Assembly: GCF_009177095.1 (NCBI RefSeq)
Contig: NZ_AP021861.1
Span: 372,001-436,000, forward strand
Length of the DNA: 64,000 nt
Source of the DNA: Lacipirellula parvula
GTDB lineage: Bacteria; Planctomycetota; Planctomycetia; Pirellulales; Lacipirellulaceae
Reading direction: 5' to 3'
The notes beneath the pieces are model-generated. The model searched no databases. It saw nothing but the letters and a program-made list of their open reading frames with translations, and had not been told where the DNA came from. A program made the position numbers and the translations under genes. Shown here piece by piece: positions 15,960-41,828 of the stretch (positions are counted from its first letter, which is position 1; each line of letters begins with the position of its first letter).

Positions 15960-18272
15960 TTAGATCTCGTTCTTCACCGTCAACCGCGGCGCCGAGCTGT
16001 AGGCGCCGGTTTGGTGGAGGCGAACCACCCGGCGGTCGGCCTTCAACGGCATGCCGTTGACTACCGAACCGAGGACTCGCACGCCCATGCCCTTAAGCAT
16101 CTCGACCGCCTTGTAGACCTTGCGGATCTCGCTGTGGTCACGCAGCACGGTGAGGACCGCTCCGTCGATGTACTGGCCGAGCGACAAGCTGTCGCTGATG
16201 CCCAGGACCGGCGGGGCGTCGATGACGATGAAGTCGAACTGATCGCGAAGCTTCTCGAAAATCGCCTGCGGCTGATCGGTCGCCAACGCATGGATGGCGT
16301 CGGCGTTGCAGACGCCGGCGGTCAGCAGGTAGAGGCCTTCGTTGTTCGTCGGCTTGATCGCGTCGACCAGGTCGATCTCCGAGCGAAGGACTTCGCTGAA
16401 GCCGTCTTCGATCGGCATGCTGAACAACTTGTGGAGGGCCGGGGCGCGCAAGTCGCCGTCGACGAGCAGCGTCCGGCGGCCAGCGCGGGCGAAGCTCAAA
16501 GCGAGACTGCTGGCGACGACCGTGTTGCCTTCCATCGTTCCCGAGCTCGTCACCATGATCACCTGGCGGCCCGCGGCCGCGGCGTCGTGCATAAGCGTAG
16601 CCCGTACGTTGTCGATCGCTTCGGCGACCTGCGTCGCGACCAGGCTGGAGCCGGTGAGGGCCTTCAGCGAGGTCGACGGGAGGATGCCGAGTACGCGAAC
16701 TCCCAGGCCTTCGTCGATATCGGCGGCGCCGTTGAGGCGACGATGGCGGAAGTCAAGCAAGGCGACGCCGTAGCAGGTGAGCGCCATGGCGACCAACCCG
16801 CCCATGCCGGCGATGGCGACGCGTTGCAGCTTGTTGTCACTGGGAAGGCGGGTCGCCTTCTGCATGACCGTCACTTTGTCGAAATCGGAGACGCCGCCCG
16901 CCCGTTCTTGGCGTTCGCGAGCTTCGTTCATGACTTGCCACTGCAGCACCTTCTCCTGCAGGCTGCCGGCAATCTGCTTTTCGCTGTCGATGTTCGCTTC
17001 GAGCATTTCGTGCTGAGGGTCGCGTACGCCCAGAGCGAGGAGCTTCGTGCGAGCCGCATCCAGTTCCTTTTGGTACTTGGCGATGCTGGTTTCGATCGAC
17101 TTAAAGCGAATGTTGTACTCGACGATGGCCGACCGCAGCGCTTCGTTCGGCATCTTCGAGATTTTGTCTCGCAGCGTCCGCTCCGCTTCGGCTTGCTGCT
17201 GAGCCATCTGGGTTTCGATCTGTTGGATATTGGCCCGCAGCTGCTTGATTTGCGAGCTATTCGGATTCTTGGAAGTCGAAAGCTTCGATTGCAGGTCCGA
17301 CTGCAATTGGAACAGCTTCTCCTTGTACATGTTGATCGAGGGGTCTTTCTCCAACTCCATGGCGACAGCCTGGTCGACGAGCGTCCGGCTGTTGGCGCCT
17401 TCGACGGCGAGTTGCTTGAAAACTTCGAGGTTGACCTTGTCTTCCTGGGCCTTCGCGAGGAGATTCTCGGTGTTCTTAATCTCGTTCATGAGCTGCGGGA
17501 TTTCGACGTCTTCCCGCTGCGTGCCCATTTTCGCGGATTGCTCTTTCAGGTCGTTGAGTCGCGTTTCCAGCCGCTTGTTCGTGTCGCTGAGTACCTGACG
17601 CAAGTCGGCCTGGGTGCTGGCCGCCAGCAAGCGATCCTGCAACAGAACCTTTTCCTGATACGCCTTCACGACGGCGTCGACCACCTTGACCATCTGGTCG
17701 GCGTCTTCTTCGCCCTCGTAGCGGACTTCGAGAATTTCGCCGTCGCCCGGGAACGTCACGCGGAGTTCGTCGGTGAGCCAGTTGATTTCCTGGCCCTGGT
17801 GAGCGCGAACGGCGTCGAGATTGGCGATGTCCCCCTGCTGCAGCACGGCGTCGAGCACGAGCGGACTTTTGAGCAGCGTGAGATGATTCATCGCTTGACG
17901 TTGAACGTCTTGCGGCGTCAATCGCTCGGATTGATTGTCGAACACGTCGCTGCCGAGCTTCGAGCGGACCTTCAAGTAGGCCGTGATGGTCGAGGTTTCC
18001 GGGAAGGCCCACCACAGAGCGCCCGCGGCGCCGGCGCCGACGAGCAGGCCCATCAGGATGGCCATGAGCCACCGCCGGCGAAGGCAGTGGGTCATCCAGG
18101 TTTGGTTGAACCCGCCGGTGAGAATCTCCGGACCGCGGGGAGCGAAGCCGCCGAACGTCGCCGGGACGTTGCTGGGGGCCGGCGACGCAACCAAGGCTCG
18201 CGACGGCGAAGCCTCGGGGGCGGGAGGATAGATCACCTCGGACTCGGAAATATCTGCGCCATCTCTAGCCAT
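15960..18272 (-). CDS. Wzc-like polysaccharide co-polymerase with degenerate BY-kinase domain
   Basis: Inner-membrane protein that should control chain length and export of exopolysaccharide. The start at 18272 (MARDGADISE) follows AGAGAGG and gives 770 residues. The layout is a Pro-rich cytoplasmic N-terminus, a first membrane helix (LMAILMGLLVGAGAAGALWW, near residue 80), a Wzz periplasmic region with long Gln/Glu-rich coiled coils, a second helix (AGMGGLVAMALTCYGVALL, near 500), and a C-terminal P-loop kinase-like domain. Walker A' (LLVDGDLRAPALHKLF) and Walker B (FIVIDAPPVLG) are intact. Walker A reads SSGTMEGNTVV, with Asn583 in place of the invariant Lys. The C-terminal tail (TGAYSSAPRLTVKNEI) has one Tyr instead of the usual cluster. 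Tyrosine kinase activity is therefore doubtful. It follows the exosortase gene on the same strand. Confidence 0.9.
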   Translation of the reverse strand: MARDGADISESEVIYPPAPEASPSRALVASPAPSNVPATFGGFAPRGPEILTGGFNQTWMTHCLRRRWLMAILMGLLVGAGAAGALWWAFPETSTITAYLKVRSKLGSDVFDNQSERLTPQDVQRQAMNHLTLLKSPLVLDAVLQQGDIANLDAVRAHQGQEINWLTDELRVTFPGDGEILEVRYEGEEDADQMVKVVDAVVKAYQEKVLLQDRLLAASTQADLRQVLSDTNKRLETRLNDLKEQSAKMGTQREDVEIPQLMNEIKNTENLLAKAQEDKVNLEVFKQLAVEGANSRTLVDQAVAMELEKDPSINMYKEKLFQLQSDLQSKLSTSKNPNSSQIKQLRANIQQIETQMAQQQAEAERTLRDKISKMPNEALRSAIVEYNIRFKSIETSIAKYQKELDAARTKLLALGVRDPQHEMLEANIDSEKQIAGSLQEKVLQWQVMNEARERQERAGGVSDFDKVTVMQKATRLPSDNKLQRVAIAGMGGLVAMALTCYGVALLDFRHRRLNGAADIDEGLGVRVLGILPSTSLKALTGSSLVATQVAEAIDNVRATLMHDAAAAGRQVIMVTSSGTMEGNTVVASSLALSFARAGRRTLLVDGDLRAPALHKLFSMPIEDGFSEVLRSEIDLVDAIKPTNNEGLYLLTAGVCNADAIHALATDQPQAIFEKLRDQFDFIVIDAPPVLGISDSLSLGQYIDGAVLTVLRDHSEIRKVYKAVEMLKGMGVRVLGSVVNGMPLKADRRVVRLHQTGAYSSAPRLTVKNEI

Positions 18273-18551
18273 CGAGTGCCTCTCTAAAAACGATACCGAC
18301 GTTGAGCGAAGATGCGTGGGCGATGCAGAAAAGCCGTCAATCAACCAACGCCGTCACCGTAAGGTTTGTTCGACGGCGTCTGCTTGTGTTACTGCGTTGC
18401 GTCCTGCCCGGAGAAGCAATCGCCGGACCAGTGGGGCCGCTCTTGCCGTTCTGCCGGGAAATCAGCCTGTTTTCGCCTGCCGGGGGGGCGCCGGCGGTTG
18501 TCTCCGGGCAACGCTGGGGTTGCCCGAACGCAACATGCCAGCACAGCCGTT

Positions 18552-19514
18552 CTAAGCGGTTGCCGCTCCGTACGGTGCAAACGCATCGTCGTCGATCGGA
18601 ATCGTCAGCCGCGACAGGATGGCCAATTCAATCCAGAGCAATCCCAGGCCGATCGGCATCATCGCCAAGCCGGCCCAGTGGTGAACGAGATCAACGAGCC
18701 ACGGGGTGTCTTGCCCGAAAGCCATGTACAGTAGCGCGGTCGAGACGATGCGGATGACGTTGCTAGCGAGCGCGATGGGGATGGCGCTCAGCAGGATCAC
18801 CAATTTGTCCCACCAGGGGCGGTCAATAATCATGACCAGCGCCACGCTCATCGCCCCGAAAATCGTCAACATCCGCAATCCGCTGCACGCCTCGGCGACT
18901 TGCAGCGGTTCTTTCAACGTGTCGACCAGGATGGTATTGCCCATCCGCGAAGCGCTGACGCCGAGCGTTTGCAGCGTCCAGGTGCTGAGAATCGACGCCC
19001 AGGTCTGCAGCTTCATCAGCAATGTGTTTTCCACGAGCGACGGCAGCGGGTACATGAACAGCAGGAACGCGACCGGCAGCCACGCCCAGCGGAACATCGA
19101 CTTACCGCCGATAAGCAGGCAAACGCCGAGCAAAGCCCCGATAAAGCTGAGCCGCTCGAAGTTGTTGAAGTCGAAGTACGCCGAGAAAACCCGCAGTCCC
19201 AGGCTGGCGGCGAGCACGCCGACGCCGATCCACCGCTCCACTGGCGCCGCTTCCGTCAGCGGCCGCCGACGGATCCAGAACAAGTAGGCGGCGAAGAAGG
19301 GAATGATGTACCCGTGGGAGTACATATCTTTCACCCAAGACGTCGCGGTGAAAGCGAGCATGTTGAAATAAGCGGCGACCAGCGTCGCCACCAAGGCGCC
19401 GAAAATGATCCAGGCGGTCTGGGCGTCGTGCGCCGACAGGGGCTGCGAGTCGTCGTAGTCGAAATCGCTGAAATTGCCGCGGGGATTCAGGTTTCGCGAA
19501 GCAGCGGTGCTCAT
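18552..19514 (-). CDS. Exosortase
   Basis: Polytopic transpeptidase that recognises and cleaves C-terminal PEP-CTERM tails and attaches or releases the exported proteins, usually in organisms that make exopolysaccharide. The 320-residue protein has about eight hydrophobic segments. The catalytic triad of the exosortase/archaeosortase superfamily is visible: Cys210 in AEACSGLR, Arg255 in SNVIRI, and His278 in VHHWAG. The entire known domain is present. Six candidate substrates occur in this window (stops or tails at 31498, 32460, 35260, 39831, 41829 and 58127). It lies upstream of the Wzc-like gene on the same strand with a 279-bp gap. This gene neighbourhood is typical of the PEP-CTERM/EPS system. 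Confidence 0.93.
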   Translation of the reverse strand: MSTAASRNLNPRGNFSDFDYDDSQPLSAHDAQTAWIIFGALVATLVAAYFNMLAFTATSWVKDMYSHGYIIPFFAAYLFWIRRRPLTEAAPVERWIGVGVLAASLGLRVFSAYFDFNNFERLSFIGALLGVCLLIGGKSMFRWAWLPVAFLLFMYPLPSLVENTLLMKLQTWASILSTWTLQTLGVSASRMGNTILVDTLKEPLQVAEACSGLRMLTIFGAMSVALVMIIDRPWWDKLVILLSAIPIALASNVIRIVSTALLYMAFGQDTPWLVDLVHHWAGLAMMPIGLGLLWIELAILSRLTIPIDDDAFAPYGAATA

Positions 19515-20246
19515 AGCAAAAAAGTCGCTTAATTGATTCGTGAAGTAAGGAGACTTCTCAGCAGCTGCTGCGAAGCTTGGGCGTCAGAACGAGCGACGAA
19601 GTTCAACGCAAAAACCGGCTGGAAACTTGCCCCATCCTTGCGACGAACGTCGCCCGCCGGTCGTGAACTGCATCGAAAATAAGATCGCGCTCTAGAACCC
19701 AAAATACGCGGGTTCTACAGAAGTGTCAAATCTCTGGAGCCCTTGGCGGCACTCGCTATCCCCTTGGAATGTAAGGGACTTACGTCTCGGTGAGGGTCGC
19801 GCCGATCGTGCCGTTCGCAGCGGCGCGACGGCTCCGATTTCGGGACTGCGGCGAGTCCTTTCATCTTCCCATGCAAAGGCGAGTTTGTTGTGAGCGCTCG
19901 TCGCTTGTGGGAGGCGTCTCCGACGCCGATTTCGCTCACAACTCCCTATAGCGACGCGGTGCCGGTCGCGGCATCGGCGTCGGAGACGCCTCCCACAAAT
20001 CCACTTGCGACCCATTTCACAAGTCATCTTGGGCGGCGGATGCTGGCGATGCTGTCACGCCGTAACCGGCAAAATCGTTACTTCCTGCCAGATTTCCGCC
20101 AATGAGGGCAAAGTCGGTGTGAAGCTCTTCCGATTATATGCATTGTAACTGTCACGTAAGCGGCTCCGCGCCGCGGTTCGTCCTATTGAGCGGACGGCCG
20201 CGGGAACCGATGCCGCCAGCGATCTTTTCTTTGCGGGAACTGACAA
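19515..20246. other. Divergent intergenic region with repeat
   Basis: These 732 bp separate the exosortase from the Wza-like gene and must hold both promoters. The repeat at 19905-19998 lies in the middle. The AT-rich patch TTATATGCATTGTAACTG near 20133 could be a promoter for the plus-strand gene. I see no open frame worth calling. Confidence 0.5.
19905..19998. repeat. Inverted-pair repeat, family A, copy 2
   Basis: The left arm GTGGGAGGCGTCTCCGACGC (19907-19926, continuing CGAT) and the right arm GTCGGAGACGCCTCCCACAA ending at 19998 are exact inverted copies over at least 24 bp. They are 42 bp apart. The arms are the same as those at 145-234 and 31350-31440, while the centres differ. Confidence 0.8.
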
Positions 20247-21305
20247 ATGATGGCTTGCCACCGAACTCGTCGCGGCATCGCTTGGCTGCTGATCGCCTAC
20301 CAGGCGGCCCTCACCGGCTGCACGGCGTTCATGGAGCCCCGCAACCCGGTCCCGGTGACGGCCCCCGAGGCTCCGCCGACGAGCCCCGTGCCGCGCGAAC
20401 TCGAGAAAGTGACTCTCCCGCGCTACGTCATCGAACCGCCGGACATCCTACTGGTCGAAGGCGTCAAGCTGGTGCCGAAGTCGCCGCACCGGATTGAAAC
20501 CTTCGACGTGCTGCTGATCCGCGTGATCGGCGCCTTCCCGGAACAGCCGATCGACAACACCTACAACGTCGACGCCGACGGCACCGTCAACCTTGGCCCC
20601 ACCTACGGACGCATCCCCGTCGTGGGGCAGACGATCGAGGAAGCCGAAGACGAAATTCGCGACCAACTGTCGAAAGTTCTCACCGACGTCGACGTCTCGG
20701 TCTCGCTCGTCGCCTCCGCTGGCGCTCAGGCGATTACCGGACAGCATCTCGTCGCGATGGACGGTCGCATTAACCTGGGCACCTACGGCTCCGTCTATGT
20801 GGCGGGCATGACGCTCGAAGAAGCCCGCGCTGCGATCGAAACGAAGCTTGGCGAGAAGCTCGAAGAGCCTGAAGTCTTCGTCGACGTCCTCGCCTACAAC
20901 AGCAAGGTCTACTACATCATCACGCAAGGCGCCGGCCTGGGCGACGACGTCACTCGCCAACCGATCACCGGCAACGAGACGGTCATCGACGCGGTGGCGG
21001 CTCTCGGCGGCATCTCGCAAGTCTCGTCGACCAAGATGTGGATCGCCCGCCCCGCCCCGAACGGCGTCGGCTGCGAGCAGATCTTGCCGATTCAATGGAA
21101 CGACATCGCTCAGGGCGCCTCGACGGCGACGAACTACCAGCTCATGCCTGGCGACCGGTTGTTCATCGCCCAAGATCGCCTGACCAATTTCAACACGGTC
21201 GTCAACAAGCTGCTTAATCCGTTCGAACGCATCTTCGGCTTCGTCTCCCTCGGCACCTCGATGGCGAACCGTATCGTCCGCTTCGGCTTGGCGAATACGT
21301 TCTAG
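20247..21305 (+). CDS. Wza-like polysaccharide export lipoprotein
   Basis: Outer-membrane polysaccharide export (OPX) family protein of 352 residues. It has a signal peptide with lipobox LTGC (lipidated Cys25), a Pro-rich linker (residues 32-50), the Poly_export domain beginning near DILLVEGVKLVP and ending in DADGTVNLGPTYGRIPVVGQT, then two SLBB-like segments (GRINLGTYGSVYVAGMTL, and YYIITQGAGLGDDVTRQP) and a C-terminal part with MPGDRLFI. A second Met at codon 2 makes the exact start ambiguous by one residue. It diverges from the exosortase/Wzc genes and with them forms the expected export trio. The polysaccharide itself is unknown, since no glycosyltransferases are in the window. Confidence 0.92.
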   Translation: MMACHRTRRGIAWLLIAYQAALTGCTAFMEPRNPVPVTAPEAPPTSPVPRELEKVTLPRYVIEPPDILLVEGVKLVPKSPHRIETFDVLLIRVIGAFPEQPIDNTYNVDADGTVNLGPTYGRIPVVGQTIEEAEDEIRDQLSKVLTDVDVSVSLVASAGAQAITGQHLVAMDGRINLGTYGSVYVAGMTLEEARAAIETKLGEKLEEPEVFVDVLAYNSKVYYIITQGAGLGDDVTRQPITGNETVIDAVAALGGISQVSSTKMWIARPAPNGVGCEQILPIQWNDIAQGASTATNYQLMPGDRLFIAQDRLTNFNTVVNKLLNPFERIFGFVSLGTSMANRIVRFGLANTF

Positions 21306-27365: not shown

Positions 27366-27568
27366 CGGGCAGGATTCGCAGGCGGGAGGCGGGCGGCAAT
27401 CGGCGCGGTAGCAACGACTCTCGATTCGTTGCTGCAGAGTGTAACCCCGGCGATAGCAGCAAAGCTCGCTCTCCAGAAAAAAGTCCAAGCGAGCCGCTGG
27501 CTTCATGCCAGCGGTCATTGCCAATCGCACGAATCGCGGGCCGACGATTGACGACAGCCGTTAAGCGC

Positions 27569-27599
27569 TGCTCCGGCGGTGCGTTGATCCGCGGCTACG
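27569..27599. repeat. REP-like hairpin, family B, single copy
   Basis: GCTCCGGCGGTGCGTTGATC followed by CGCGGCTAC. The stem GCGGTGC / GATCCGC has loop GTT and one G-T wobble. It belongs to the same family as the hairpins at 33880, 39805, 48133-48281 and 50056-50206. It lies in the 364-bp divergent gap 27366-27729 between a DUF1559 gene and the Cys-rich gene; nothing else was recognised there. Confidence 0.65.
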
Positions 27600-27729
27600 G
27601 CGGTGCTGGCGCCTGCCTGGTTTCTCTTGACCGCCGCCGTCATACCCGCGTACTGTCCGCGGCCCGTGACGGGTCTCGCGCTCACTCTCGAGCGGCCCAA
27701 CGATAATTTCACGCACTGGAGGCGTTGCG

Positions 27730-30189
27730 ATGGTCGCGAAGGTGTTCTTGGCAGCGGCGGCGATTCTGATTTGCTGCGGCACGACGCTGCAGGGCGAATG
27801 CCCCGGCGGCAAATGCGACAAGTCGGGCGAATGCGCGACGGCGTCGAACGCAGAAACGTGCAGCGTCGAAACTTGCAGCTGCGAAGAATGCAGCGGCGAG
27901 AAGTGCACCGCGTGCAAATGCCAGAAGTCGACGAGCGACGATCTGAAGGTCGCCGTCGTGAAGGACGAAGAATGCTGCGAAAAGAAGAAGTGCTCCGCTG
28001 AAAAGTGCACGGCTGGAACTTGCCAAGATGCGAAGTGCAGTGCTGAAAAGTGCAGCGCGTGCAAGTGCGACAAGTCGACCGCGAGCGACGAGCTCAAGGT
28101 CGCGCTCGTCAAGGACGAAGAGTGCTGCGAGAAAAAGAAGTGCTCGACGTGCTCGACCAAAAAGTGCTCTGGCTCAGCTTGCAAAGATTCTGCCTGCAGC
28201 AAGACCGCCTGCATTGCCGGCTCGTGTAACCTCAGCCAATGTACCGCGGGCAGCTGCGGCGACGGCGCTTGCAGCCTGACGGCCGGCGTCAGCTCGATGT
28301 GCGAAACGCTGAAGTGTGCGATCGTTGATGCCGCCAAGCAGGAATTCACCGCGACGTGCAGCGGCGGAACTTGCAGCGGCGGAACGTGCTCGAAGAGTAA
28401 GTGCGAATGCGGCGGGAACATCTGCAGCACGACGGCCTGCTCCGGCAAGTCGTGCGGCAGCAAGTGCTCCACGGTCGCTGCCGCGGAACCGTGCGATACG
28501 TGGTTCTGCTTCGAAGGCAACTGCTCCGCCGGCGAATGCAGCGCTGCGTGCTCGACCGAAGTTTGCGACGGCCTGAAGTACGCCGTTGAAGCCTGCCTCA
28601 CTCTCAATGGCGGCGAATTCACGATCACCACCTCAAAGACCTGGCCCGGCACGCCCGTTGAAGTCGCCGTCGCGGCTGAAGAATGCACGAAAGTTTCCGC
28701 CTGCTCGAAGTCGTGCGGCAGCGAGTGCTCTGGCAAGTGTGCCGGCGAATGCAGCAAAGAGTGCGTTGTTGAGTGCAGCAAGTCGACCTGCGGTACGCTC
28801 GCCTGCTCGACTGAAAAGTGCACCGTCGCCAAGTGCGACGCCGCGCAATGCTCGACGGATGTTTGCGGCGCCGAGCAGAGCGAACTCGACGCGAAACTCG
28901 CCGATCTCGCTAAACTGCAACGCGAAGTCGCCGAGCTTCGCCGTACGACCGGCACGCCGGAGCAGTTGATCGTCAACGTCAAGCTGGTCGAAGTCGATTT
29001 GACGAAGTGCCGCAAGTTGGGCTTCTCGTTCGATTCAGCATCGCCCCATATGGTGGCGGATTTAAACGAGACGATCGAAAAGTCGCCCGATTTCCTCACG
29101 GCGCTGCAGAAGAATCATTTGGCCAACGTCGTCGCCAACCCGACGCTGGTCGTGCTTAGCGGCCGTCCGGCTCAGTTTCATGCTGGCGGTCAATTTCCAG
29201 TTACCAGCGGCGACGGCCGCACGGAGTATAAGGACTTCGGCACCAAGGTCGACGTCCTGGCGACGACCGTCGGCGGCGGTAAAGTTCGGATGGAGATTCG
29301 CCCCGAGTTTAGCGAAGTGAACGGCGAGTGCGGCCCGGCCCCCTGCCCTGCCCTTTCAGCTCGTCGTTGGGATTCAAGTCTGATCGCCGAGCTTGGGAAG
29401 CCGTTCGTCCTATCGAGTGCCAGCGAGCGTCGCGTTCAGGCGCATGTCGAGACCGACGTTACGCAGAATCCGCCGCAACAACGGGTGCGTCAAGAGGTCA
29501 GCGAAGTGCAGTACTTCGCTGTCGTCACGGTGGAAGCGTCGGAGGGGATGGAGCCCGCTGTTTCGGAGATTCACCAAGCCGGTTTCGAGAGCCAAGCCGG
29601 GCGCGAACAAGTACAAGCCGCGTACGAAAAAGCGCTGCTGGCGGAAGTTGCGGAGGAGGAGTACTGCGTACGCGTCTACCCGGTCGCGGATCTGCAGGTG
29701 TGGCGCGTTCGTCCCGATGGCGTGGAGTTCGACGCCAGCTTGCTGACGACGCTCATCAAAGTGATGGCTCCTGAAAATTCGTGGCGAACGGAGGCGGATG
29801 GCGTTACCGTCGACGAATCGGCGCGTGGCGAGATTGAGGCCTTCGAACGCAACGGTTCGCTGGTGATTTGCCAAACGGAAGAAAGCCACGAGCGTATTGC
29901 TGACTTCCTGCAGCACATGCGGGTCGAGAATCTGAAGAAGACCGAAGCTCGCGAGCAGAGCGAGGCCGCGGTCGTTCCCGCCTCGGGCGTCGAACCAGTT
30001 TCGATTGAGACGAAGACCGAAGCAAAGTGCAGCCAAGGCGCTTGCAAGGGATCGAAGTGCCCGAGCGGCCAGTGCAGCAAGTCGTCCGCCGACTCCGTGA
30101 TCGACGTTGCAGCCGCGCCCGGCGAATGCACCGGCAATTGCCCCGAGTGGGGCGATTGTCCCTGCATCGGCGGCACGTGCACGAAGTAA
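27730..30189 (+). CDS. Cys-rich exported protein with secretin-like segment
   Basis: An 819-residue protein with a signal peptide (MVAKVFLAAAAILICCG). The next roughly 370 residues hold about 65 cysteines in short spaced units such as CSAEKCTAGTCQ and KSCGSECSGKCAGEC. A stretch of about 28 residues is duplicated within it (DLKVAVVKDEECCEKKKC and ELKVALVKDEECCEKKKC). Then comes a coiled-coil (LDAKLADLAKLQREVAELRR) and a segment resembling the secretin family: LIVNVKLVEVDL, VVANPTLVVLSGRPAQFHAG, then GTKVDVLATTVGGGKVRMEI. A mixed domain follows, and the tail returns to Cys-rich sequence (CSQGACKGSKC). A full secretin pore domain is not evident. It may be a disulfide- or metal-rich envelope protein. 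Function unknown. It is followed by a strong terminator. Confidence 0.85.
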   Translation: MVAKVFLAAAAILICCGTTLQGECPGGKCDKSGECATASNAETCSVETCSCEECSGEKCTACKCQKSTSDDLKVAVVKDEECCEKKKCSAEKCTAGTCQDAKCSAEKCSACKCDKSTASDELKVALVKDEECCEKKKCSTCSTKKCSGSACKDSACSKTACIAGSCNLSQCTAGSCGDGACSLTAGVSSMCETLKCAIVDAAKQEFTATCSGGTCSGGTCSKSKCECGGNICSTTACSGKSCGSKCSTVAAAEPCDTWFCFEGNCSAGECSAACSTEVCDGLKYAVEACLTLNGGEFTITTSKTWPGTPVEVAVAAEECTKVSACSKSCGSECSGKCAGECSKECVVECSKSTCGTLACSTEKCTVAKCDAAQCSTDVCGAEQSELDAKLADLAKLQREVAELRRTTGTPEQLIVNVKLVEVDLTKCRKLGFSFDSASPHMVADLNETIEKSPDFLTALQKNHLANVVANPTLVVLSGRPAQFHAGGQFPVTSGDGRTEYKDFGTKVDVLATTVGGGKVRMEIRPEFSEVNGECGPAPCPALSARRWDSSLIAELGKPFVLSSASERRVQAHVETDVTQNPPQQRVRQEVSEVQYFAVVTVEASEGMEPAVSEIHQAGFESQAGREQVQAAYEKALLAEVAEEEYCVRVYPVADLQVWRVRPDGVEFDASLLTTLIKVMAPENSWRTEADGVTVDESARGEIEAFERNGSLVICQTEESHERIADFLQHMRVENLKKTEAREQSEAAVVPASGVEPVSIETKTEAKCSQGACKGSKCPSGQCSKSSADSVIDVAAAPGECTGNCPEWGDCPCIGGTCTK

Positions 30190-39804: not shown

Positions 39805-39835
39805 CGCTCCGGCCGGTCGTTGACCGGCGGCTACT
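39805..39835. repeat. REP-like hairpin, family B, at stop codon
   Basis: The stem GCCGGTC / GACCGGC with loop GTT is followed by GGCTAC. Bases 39831-39833 (CTA) are at once the end of the repeat and the stop codon of the minus-strand PEP-CTERM gene. Compared with the copy at 33880 the stem bases differ but remain paired. Confidence 0.75.
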
Positions 39836-41747
39836 TGCGGCGCTGAAGCGCTAGCGGCGCGGCGAGGAGGGCGAGCAGTGCGGCGGCTGGCTCGGGGACG
39901 GGGGCGGAGGTCGCCGTTGCGGGGAACATGCCGTACTGGCGTTGCCACACGAGGTAATCGGCGCCGTCGGTCTTCGCGTCGCCGTTAGCGTCGCCGAGCG
40001 CGGTCGCGCCGAACGCTCCCTTCCAGATCGTGAGGTCCTGCGAATCGACGTCGCCGTCCTTATCGAAGTCGGCCGCCAAGAAGCTGCCGCCGACCACCGC
40101 GAGCATCACCGCGTTTGGCGTGTACTGCACGTCGAACGACAGCCCGCCGCTGAGAGCGGGCAGCGACTCCGATGAAAACGTTCCGCTGATCCCGTTGGCC
40201 GCGGTGAGGATAGTGAACGTTTCGCCGAGCATCGGCGCGAAGCCTGGCGCCAGCGACACGGCGAGCGCCCCGGCCAGCGTTGACGAGCCGCCGACGCTCA
40301 CCATACCGAACGCATCGGTCGGGCCGTCGCCCGTTTCGAGGTTCGCCACTTGCAGGGCCAGCGACGACGACGGCACGAAGCTGAGGTTCTCAAGCATTAC
40401 GATCTCGCTCGATGCCGAGACGTAAATCTTGCCGCTGTTCGCTACCGCATCATGAAAGACGCCGGTCGCTCCGCCGACAACGGCGATCTCCGCTCCCAGG
40501 TTGTTGTCGACGGCGCCAAACACGTCGACTGTGCCGCCGGTGATCGCGAGCTGCGAGCCGGAGTTGTTGTCGAGCCCCGCCCCGCCGACGCGGAGCGTGG
40601 CGCCGTTGCGAGCGTCGATATCGCCGTTGTTGGCGATGACGCCACGGACTTCGAGTTCTCCGCCGGCGAGATCGACGAGGCCGGTGTTCGTCAGCAAGCC
40701 GGTGAGCAGCAGGTGATCGCCCGTTTTCGTTTGGAGTCTGCCCTGCGTTTGACCGTTCACCGAAACGCCTTGCATGTCGAGCGTGCCGGAACCTTGCAGC
40801 AAACCAGAGATGGTGAGGGCCGTGTTCGACAGGGCCGTCGACGTCCACCGCCCTGCGGCCAGCGTGACGCGGCCGGTCGGCGAGATTTGCGACATCGCGC
40901 CGGTCGTCACGGTTCCGCCGTTGGAGATTGTGATGGAGGCGTCGCCAGCGCCCGTATTCAAACTCGCGGCGTTGATTTGCAGTCGCGAGCCGATCCCATC
41001 GACGACCAACTCGCCGTACGAGGCCGACGTCACGCCAACGTCCACGACCGTGTCTACTGACAAGCGACCGCCACCGTTGATTTCCAGCCGCCCCGTGCCC
41101 GCGCCGCCGACTGCGACGCCGTTCGCATGCCAATACGAGAGGTCGCCGCTCACGAGCGCCGATCCGACAGCCGTCAGGTTGGCCCCGATGGTCACCGTGT
41201 CGGAATCGAGGAAGCCGCCGGCGAGGACTTCGACTGAAGCCGTGCCGTTGAGGCCGACCGTCATGTCGTCGCCGTTGGAGTACGTCGTTCCCAGTCCCGT
41301 CACGACAAGCTTGCCGGTCGAGGTGCTTTGGCCGCCGATGGTCGTATCGTCGGGAACGATGATCTTCGCCAGGTTGGCGACGGAGACCGTGCCGACCCCC
41401 TCGTCGCCGATTAGCATGTCGAGGCTGGCGTTAATAAGTTCGTAGTTCGCGCCGTAGCCGTTCAAGCTGAACACGCCGATGCCGGCAACGCCGTTGCCGA
41501 TGATGGTGGTTCCCGTGTTCGTGAGGCCGGTGCTCGCCGTGACGGTGACCGATCCGTAGGCGGCGTCGCCGATGGTGAACGCTCCGCCGATCGCGCCGCC
41601 GCCGGCCGGCGGCACGGGCGTCACGGCGCCGATGGTCGTCACCGCCGCGGACGCCGTCTCCTGGACGCCGCCAAAGCCAATCGCAAGAACAGCCGCCAGT
41701 GCCGAGCGTCGACGACGCCCCGCCTGCAAGAGGGAGTGCTGAATCAT
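39831..41747 (-). CDS. Large PEP-CTERM protein with dockerin repeats
   Basis: A 638-residue exported protein. The start at 41747 (MIQHSLLQAGRRRRS) gives a normal signal peptide. A longer start at 41798 has a GGGGA before it and remains possible. The mature part is Gly-, Thr- and Asn-rich with repeated strand-turn units (VTIGANLTAVGSALVSG, TGRLEINGGGRLSVDT, NNGDIDARNGATLRVGG), as in beta-helix/autotransporter-like surface proteins. Near the C-terminus lie dockerin-like loops DFDKDGDVDSQDLTIWK and DANGDAKTDGADYLVWQ, then a PEP-CTERM tail (VPEPAAALLALLAAPLALQRRK). It is an exosortase substrate, presumably in the matrix or envelope. It lies 82 bp downstream of another protein of the same architecture. 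Confidence 0.87.
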   Translation of the reverse strand: MIQHSLLQAGRRRRSALAAVLAIGFGGVQETASAAVTTIGAVTPVPPAGGGAIGGAFTIGDAAYGSVTVTASTGLTNTGTTIIGNGVAGIGVFSLNGYGANYELINASLDMLIGDEGVGTVSVANLAKIIVPDDTTIGGQSTSTGKLVVTGLGTTYSNGDDMTVGLNGTASVEVLAGGFLDSDTVTIGANLTAVGSALVSGDLSYWHANGVAVGGAGTGRLEINGGGRLSVDTVVDVGVTSASYGELVVDGIGSRLQINAASLNTGAGDASITISNGGTVTTGAMSQISPTGRVTLAAGRWTSTALSNTALTISGLLQGSGTLDMQGVSVNGQTQGRLQTKTGDHLLLTGLLTNTGLVDLAGGELEVRGVIANNGDIDARNGATLRVGGAGLDNNSGSQLAITGGTVDVFGAVDNNLGAEIAVVGGATGVFHDAVANSGKIYVSASSEIVMLENLSFVPSSSLALQVANLETGDGPTDAFGMVSVGGSSTLAGALAVSLAPGFAPMLGETFTILTAANGISGTFSSESLPALSGGLSFDVQYTPNAVMLAVVGGSFLAADFDKDGDVDSQDLTIWKGAFGATALGDANGDAKTDGADYLVWQRQYGMFPATATSAPVPEPAAALLALLAAPLALQRRK

Positions 41748-41828
41748 GAGAGGTCGATCCAAGTAGGCGAAAACGAGAGCCTGCGCCGCCGGAGCCATCT
41801 TAATTCCCCGGCGGCGCGGGGGCGATCA

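Follow-up and report, generated by a model that had tools for sequence, protein, structure and literature searches.

In an extract of PMC8134430, the amphipathic helical loop that secretins carry between two transmembrane strands is described as highly conserved and essential for membrane insertion, and extracts of two further papers treat this loop likewise (PMC6532946, PMC7545093). The walls of planctomycetes have been suggested to consist mainly of protein, and the cysteine-rich wall components named in an extract of another study are the YTV proteins, found in cell-wall preparations (PMC8567305). Envelope proteins of the chlamydiae, a related phylum, are cross-linked by disulfides according to an extract of a further report (PMC6752827); they are set beside the protein described here as a functional analogy only.

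Here we report a secretin core without the putative insertion loop, placed within a cysteine-rich architecture that recurs in the planctomycete order Pirellulales. The gene lies in a window of 64,000 nucleotides from Lacipirellula parvula (contig NZ_AP021861.1, positions 372,001 to 436,000), and its features are listed in Table 1 by window position. With the RcpA-type Tad secretin of Pseudomonas aeruginosa (PDB 8odn) the encoded protein shares the core, by sequence as well as by predicted fold; it differs in lacking the stretch FPWLGDIPILGAFF, which RcpA shows before the last strand in the alignment of the two, in having a Secretin_N-like domain C-terminal of the core, and in its added cysteine arms. 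Compared with a group of small proteins for which we coined the name mini-secretins, it likewise ends the core without the loop motif, and adds the cysteine arms and the C-terminal domain. The initial annotation of this DNA, which had been made from the sequence alone, did not mention how the domains are ordered, the absence of the loop, the mini-secretins that stand alone or the second fusion, found in another family of the order.

Table 1. Features of the chimeric gene and its flanks, by position in the window
Feature	Residues	Position	Strand	Evidence
Shine-Dalgarno-like GGAGG		27718..27722	+	seen in sequence
CDS, chimeric Cys-rich secretin-like protein	819 aa	27730..30189	+	ATG start, exact ORF
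Signal-peptide-like start	1-22	27730..27795	+	ortholog alignment, judged by eye
Cys-every-fifth region, 63 Cys	23-380	27796..28869	+	Cys counts
Duplicated block, copy 1, CTACKCQKS...LKVAVVKDEECCEKKKC	59-88	27904..27993	+	
Duplicated block, copy 2, CSACKCDKS...LKVALVKDEECCEKKKC	108-138	28051..28143	+	
Long helix, predicted coiled coil	~380-407	28867..28950	+	AF2 model
Mini-secretin core, strand-rich	~412-603	28963..29538	+	Pfam, AF2, VIA-align, profile, motif test
Second helix or linker	~622-640	29593..29649	+	AF2, block pLDDT 56-67
Secretin_N-like domain, VYPV...SW...NGSLVICQT...HERIADFL	~649-732	29674..29925	+	AF2 block pLDDT 47-86; below Pfam cut-off
Cys-rich tail, 9 Cys	767-819	30028..30186	+	alignment and Cys counts
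Perfect 17-bp hairpin directly past stop codon		30222..30259	+	z -6.6

Full-length, single-frame orthologs occur in Lacipirellula limnantheis I41 and in the MAG Pirellula sp. PB1.3.31 (genomes G001 and G003); the window protein is labelled P0003 below and its two orthologs P0001 and P0002, the latter from L. limnantheis. An assembly error joining two genes, which the initial annotation had named as one of two findings that could undo its reading, is ruled out: because three genomes carry the fusion as one frame, we regard it as a real single gene. Third codon positions vary most in all six segments of the gene and in all three pairwise ortholog comparisons, which also supports the reading frame. 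No family showing this combination of domains appeared in Pfam and NCBIfam scans of the window protein, in line with the earlier remark that none was known, and the titles and abstract openings listed by literature searches contained nothing on a cysteine-rich secretin chimera. The hairpin behind the gene, equalled by 0 of 200 shuffles, is a possible transcript end; it is absent from the list returned by a terminator scan. On the minus strand, an ORF at 27561-29099 overlaps the gene.

Among the matches listed for 196 sampled genomes of the order, only these three genomes gave end-to-end matches. Within the genus, three of six genomes carry the gene, and the three without it are 92%, 68% and 82% complete. 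In a sample of 248 genomes of the class, four matched at E 1e-25, the window's own genome being the single end-to-end case; G001 and G003 are absent from these matches and were presumably not drawn. The order and class searches scored at most five and at most four candidates per genome, respectively. A scan of named genomes returned no homologs when started from the single protein and two when started from an alignment. Around the ortholog in both G001 and G003 lie homologs of the window genes at 20247, 21452, 22760, 26430 and 33908. Ten neighbours in the window were scanned for families, among which were an exosortase, a polysaccharide exporter, DUF1559 and HAD proteins, and others. The stretch at 15960-21305 holds a P-loop ATPase (open to a Wzc-like reading) together with genes for an exosortase and for polysaccharide export, which suggests an exopolysaccharide and sorting locus upstream.

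The secretin-type segment proposed in the initial annotation proved significant in the profile comparison that it had called for. The stretch VVANPTLVVLSGRPAQFHAG (residues 467-486) lies inside a match to PF00263 (Secretin) at residues 458-562 (E 5.5e-13; 49.3 bits, above the cut-off of 27.5), which covers positions 1-120 of the 169 in the profile; of the orthologs, P0001 passes this threshold with 32.8 bits and P0002, at 21.8 bits, does not. A profile built from alignment A2 (17 rows) matched RcpA at E 3.8e-39, and the core matches L002, a secretin of the same genome, at 34% over residues 424-621 (E 7.8e-21). Structure prediction points the same way: the AF2 model of residues 379-762 has a secretin-like fold (mean pLDDT 80.6, pTM 0.58), with block pLDDT of 70-97 across the helix and core (model residues 1-230) and values of at least 87 in 19 of the 23 ten-residue blocks. 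The coiled coil noted earlier is predicted in it as one long helix. Foldseek searches with the model returned secretins as top matches, at E 5.6e-10 and up, and VIA-align superposed it on GspD (5wq8; Z 14.3, 201 aligned, rmsd 7.2) and on RcpA (8odn; Z 13.2, 152 aligned, rmsd 6.0, 28% identity), the rmsd against most secretins being 6-8 Å. Profile and predicted fold together uphold the description of this segment as secretin-derived. The core of the L. limnantheis ortholog has diverged, with a terminal tree branch of 2.58, and for this reason selection on the secretin module may be weak.

The stretch that is absent from the core is, we presume from its position and motif, the amphipathic helical insertion loop. 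The motif V/LP..LG.IP..G..F is absent from all 14 mini or chimeric rows of A2, the window protein included (the tally excludes two L004 rows and one L003 row of this alignment, none of which is a core). Of 44 distinct long secretins, a set made up of the loci retrieved by the searches of this analysis and de-duplicated by sequence, 42 carry it. The count, like the tree described below, omits the stand-alone core L124, the first core of L114 and the L006 domain. The two long secretins without the motif are L089 (G071) and L090 (G055). Each has two secretin-like cores in tandem; the frame of L089 runs to 662 codons and includes 5 cysteines, that of L090 to 563 codons and 2 cysteines.

Stand-alone mini-secretins are proteins of about 260-340 residues that have a related core, no cysteine arms and no C-terminal domain. 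They were found in the window's own genome (L005), the genus (L020 and L022), the family (L027/L115 and L119) and the order (L120-L125), and L027/L115 is 39% identical to the window protein over residues 352-574 (E 2.3e-34). Several show, by eye, what looks like a signal peptide and, ahead of the core, a helical stretch. The search for homologs in other planctomycetes that had been proposed to see whether the two parts occur separately thus returned both arrangements: the full-length fusion in two orthologs and the core by itself in the mini-secretins. A tree of 45 rows sets 31 canonical secretins opposite the 14 mini or chimeric rows (100/99), and ten stand-alone mini-secretins share the side of the chimeras. 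Judged by sequence, the middle segment of the window protein belongs with the stand-alone planctomycete mini-secretins, its fine placement being unsure because long branches, the chimeras among them, meet in this part of the tree.

A second cysteine-rich fusion, L114, comes from another family of the order (G054) and has 1169 residues, 82 cysteines and two cores. Its cysteines are spaced mainly by five and six (20 and 26 pairs; for C-x4-C, shuffles gave a mean of 5.8 and a maximum of 13). One core is well preserved and scores 57.6 bits with PF00263, above the cut-off; the other is degenerate, with a probability of 97.1% (E 5.8e-11) in a profile comparison and a match to the mini-secretin L122 at 24% (E 5e-12). 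In the tree, the partner of the good core is L122, which belongs to the same family (100/97); the window chimera lies apart from this pair, and the chimera label needs two changes. Since the good core groups in this manner, two fusions are the simplest account, and the placement suggests, subject to doubt over long branches, that the cysteine-rich secretin fusion arose twice. Relatives of the whole of L114 were absent from the other three genomes of its family, all three of which match the secretin core only.

The domain that follows the core in the window protein is Secretin_N-like and stands in reversed order relative to the usual arrangement, at residues 649-732 behind a core at 412-603; the Pfam scan placed no N-domain upstream of the core. 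Taken in isolation, it scores below the PF03958 (Secretin_N) cut-off of 28.2 bits in all three proteins (17.9 in the window protein, 16.8 in P0001, 16.5 in P0002). A relative of the domain stands before a secretin in L006, of the same genome, and others lie in different proteins, L003 and L004; one of the two L004 domains reaches 27.6 bits with PF03958, and the other L004 domain and that of L003 gave no match. Between P0001 and P0002 the C-terminal domain is 0.78 identical.

The start of the protein is well kept, residues 1-22 having identities of 0.82, 0.82 and 1.00 in the three pairwise ortholog comparisons. Of the 79 cysteines, 65 fall within residues 1-390, exactly as first estimated, and 14 beyond; the cysteine-rich tail and the duplicated block reported at the outset were also recovered, and the two copies of the block are not visible in either ortholog in the alignment. 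Residues 23-380 hold 37 C-x4-C pairs, where 2000 shuffles averaged 10.8 and never exceeded 21, and the span 23-383 gives the same result. The ortholog regions hold 43 and 45 such pairs (shuffle means 9.6 and 10.2, maxima 19 and 21, again with 2000 shuffles), with uninterrupted Cys-every-fifth runs of up to 86 residues. Cysteines are shared in 42 of 64 aligned columns of this region between P0003 and P0001 (identity 0.39), 39 of 65 between P0003 and P0002 (0.35) and 54 of 66 between P0001 and P0002 (0.52), in each case a higher share than the identity of the region as a whole; these are counts that must be read with the preference of alignment programs for pairing cysteines in mind. At E 1e-8, relatives of the cysteine region were confined to the same three genomes among the 196 of the order. 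A folded repeat was considered for this region and is unsupported, its mean pLDDT in AF2 being 33.9 with an alignment of three sequences only; such a low-confidence model would fit a cross-linked matrix but also an unstructured metal binder. Like the YTV wall proteins (PF07639), the window protein is planctomycete and cysteine-rich; the Pfam scan gave no PF07639 match in it at E up to 1. A YTV frame of the same genome, L131 (C1, ~1508868-1510166), comes near it in cysteine count, with 78 in 596 codons, and has 4, 9, 12 and 14 as its commonest spacings (to lag 15).

Our preferred reading, held tentatively as quite possible, is that the protein is an exported, disulfide-cross-linked component of the envelope whose secretin module is soluble and serves in assembly or docking, not as a pore. 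Carried to the envelope by what looks like a signal peptide, it would have cysteine arms on either side of a soluble secretin-derived module, made up of the beta-core without the putative insertion loop and the Secretin_N-like domain. In the oxidising envelope the arms would form intermolecular disulfides, and the module, making no pore, may associate with copies of itself or dock on a genuine secretin or some other ring; the arms would then stitch the docked structure into a cross-linked protein layer. We favour the disulfide reading because of the signal-like start, the conservation of cysteines, the lack of a confident predicted fold in the cysteine region and the presence of YTV proteins in the genome. 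The cysteine period of five, the secretin core without the loop motif and the recurrence of a cysteine-rich secretin architecture, with L114 in another family, also count for the preferred reading; the divergence of the P0002 core, the patchy presence in the genus and neighbours that do not point to a secretion system count against it. Chlamydiae have a disulfide-bonded secretin, again a functional analogy only. Since planctomycetes are reported to contain peptidoglycan, a purely protein wall is uncertain. On the envelope reading, the window protein would be another candidate type of cysteine-rich wall protein, with an assembly module that can be tested, and the group of cores that lack the putative insertion loop suggests reuse of the secretin fold in soluble building blocks. 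A bolder and unlikely extension is an undescribed class of planctomycete wall proteins, arisen at least twice in the order, in which disulfide-forming Cys-every-fifth arms on non-inserting secretin rings weld pores or crater-like structures of the outer membrane into a protein layer.

The homology of the core to L002 of the same genome would also suit a secretin adaptor, in which core and Secretin_N-like domain co-assemble into a heteromeric ring with an L002-type secretin or with pseudopilin machinery and the cysteine arms act as tethers. Beside the window gene, and transcribed divergently, lies a DUF1559 gene that encodes a pilin-type N_methyl motif, and a homolog of this neighbour is found within a few kb at both ortholog loci. 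DUF1559 genes are, however, very common in planctomycetes; in G001 and G003 a homolog of the window ORF 39831-41798 sits between the ortholog and the DUF1559 gene, and beyond two DUF1559 proteins the ten scanned neighbours hold no pilus or secretion-system family, so that we rate the adaptor as unlikely, if worth keeping in view. Improbable in our judgement is a metal- or thiol-buffering periplasmic protein whose cysteines bind soft metals around a passive secretin scaffold. The total of 79 cysteines and a Cys region that is rich in Lys and Glu (0.108 and 0.094) and has no predicted fold would accord with such a role, and metal binding is made less likely by the cysteine spacing: in metallothioneins the cysteines stand largely as C-x-C and CC, a pattern not seen here, where residues 23-380 show 2 CC and 4 C-x-C against the dominant C-x4-C (3 and 3 CC, 0 and 0 C-x-C in the orthologs). 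A metal-resistance family is likewise absent among the ten scanned neighbours.

Quite improbable, as we see it, is a decaying secretin paralog: a mini-secretin gene would have taken up Cys-codon repeats as they expanded and would now drift without selected function. The gene does contain three short period-15 arrays of 2.4 to 4.5 copies, perfect or near-perfect 15-bp Cys-codon repeats are present at other places in the order (24 of 30 loci checked), the P0002 core has diverged and the gene is patchy in the genus; yet the repeats of the window gene are eroded, its best 75-nt stretch being 67% identical at lag 15, and three intact long frames, the conserved start, cysteine positions, C-terminal domain and tail, and the third-position excess speak against decay. 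A precursor of a modified peptide with cysteine at every fifth position (NF038108, the CefA RiPP family) was prompted by a weak match of P0002 (15.8 bits against a cut-off of 30), and is extremely improbable: P0003 and P0001 are unmatched at E up to 1, and no maturase was found nearby by the CxxxCxxC motif, which three frames in the window hold, none of them adjoining the gene. Across the order, 27 of 196 genomes match NF038108, the window's own genome not among them, and the seven that exceed the cut-off probably do so through 15-bp repeats. We dropped the RiPP explanation because 24 of the 30 NF038108 loci retrieved (L054-L083) contain 15-bp Cys-codon tandem repeats, judged by whether some 75-nt stretch reaches 85% identity at lag 15. 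One of these loci, L059, also holds at 567-809, apart from its reported match, an 81-codon frame that has 12 cysteines and begins like a signal peptide.
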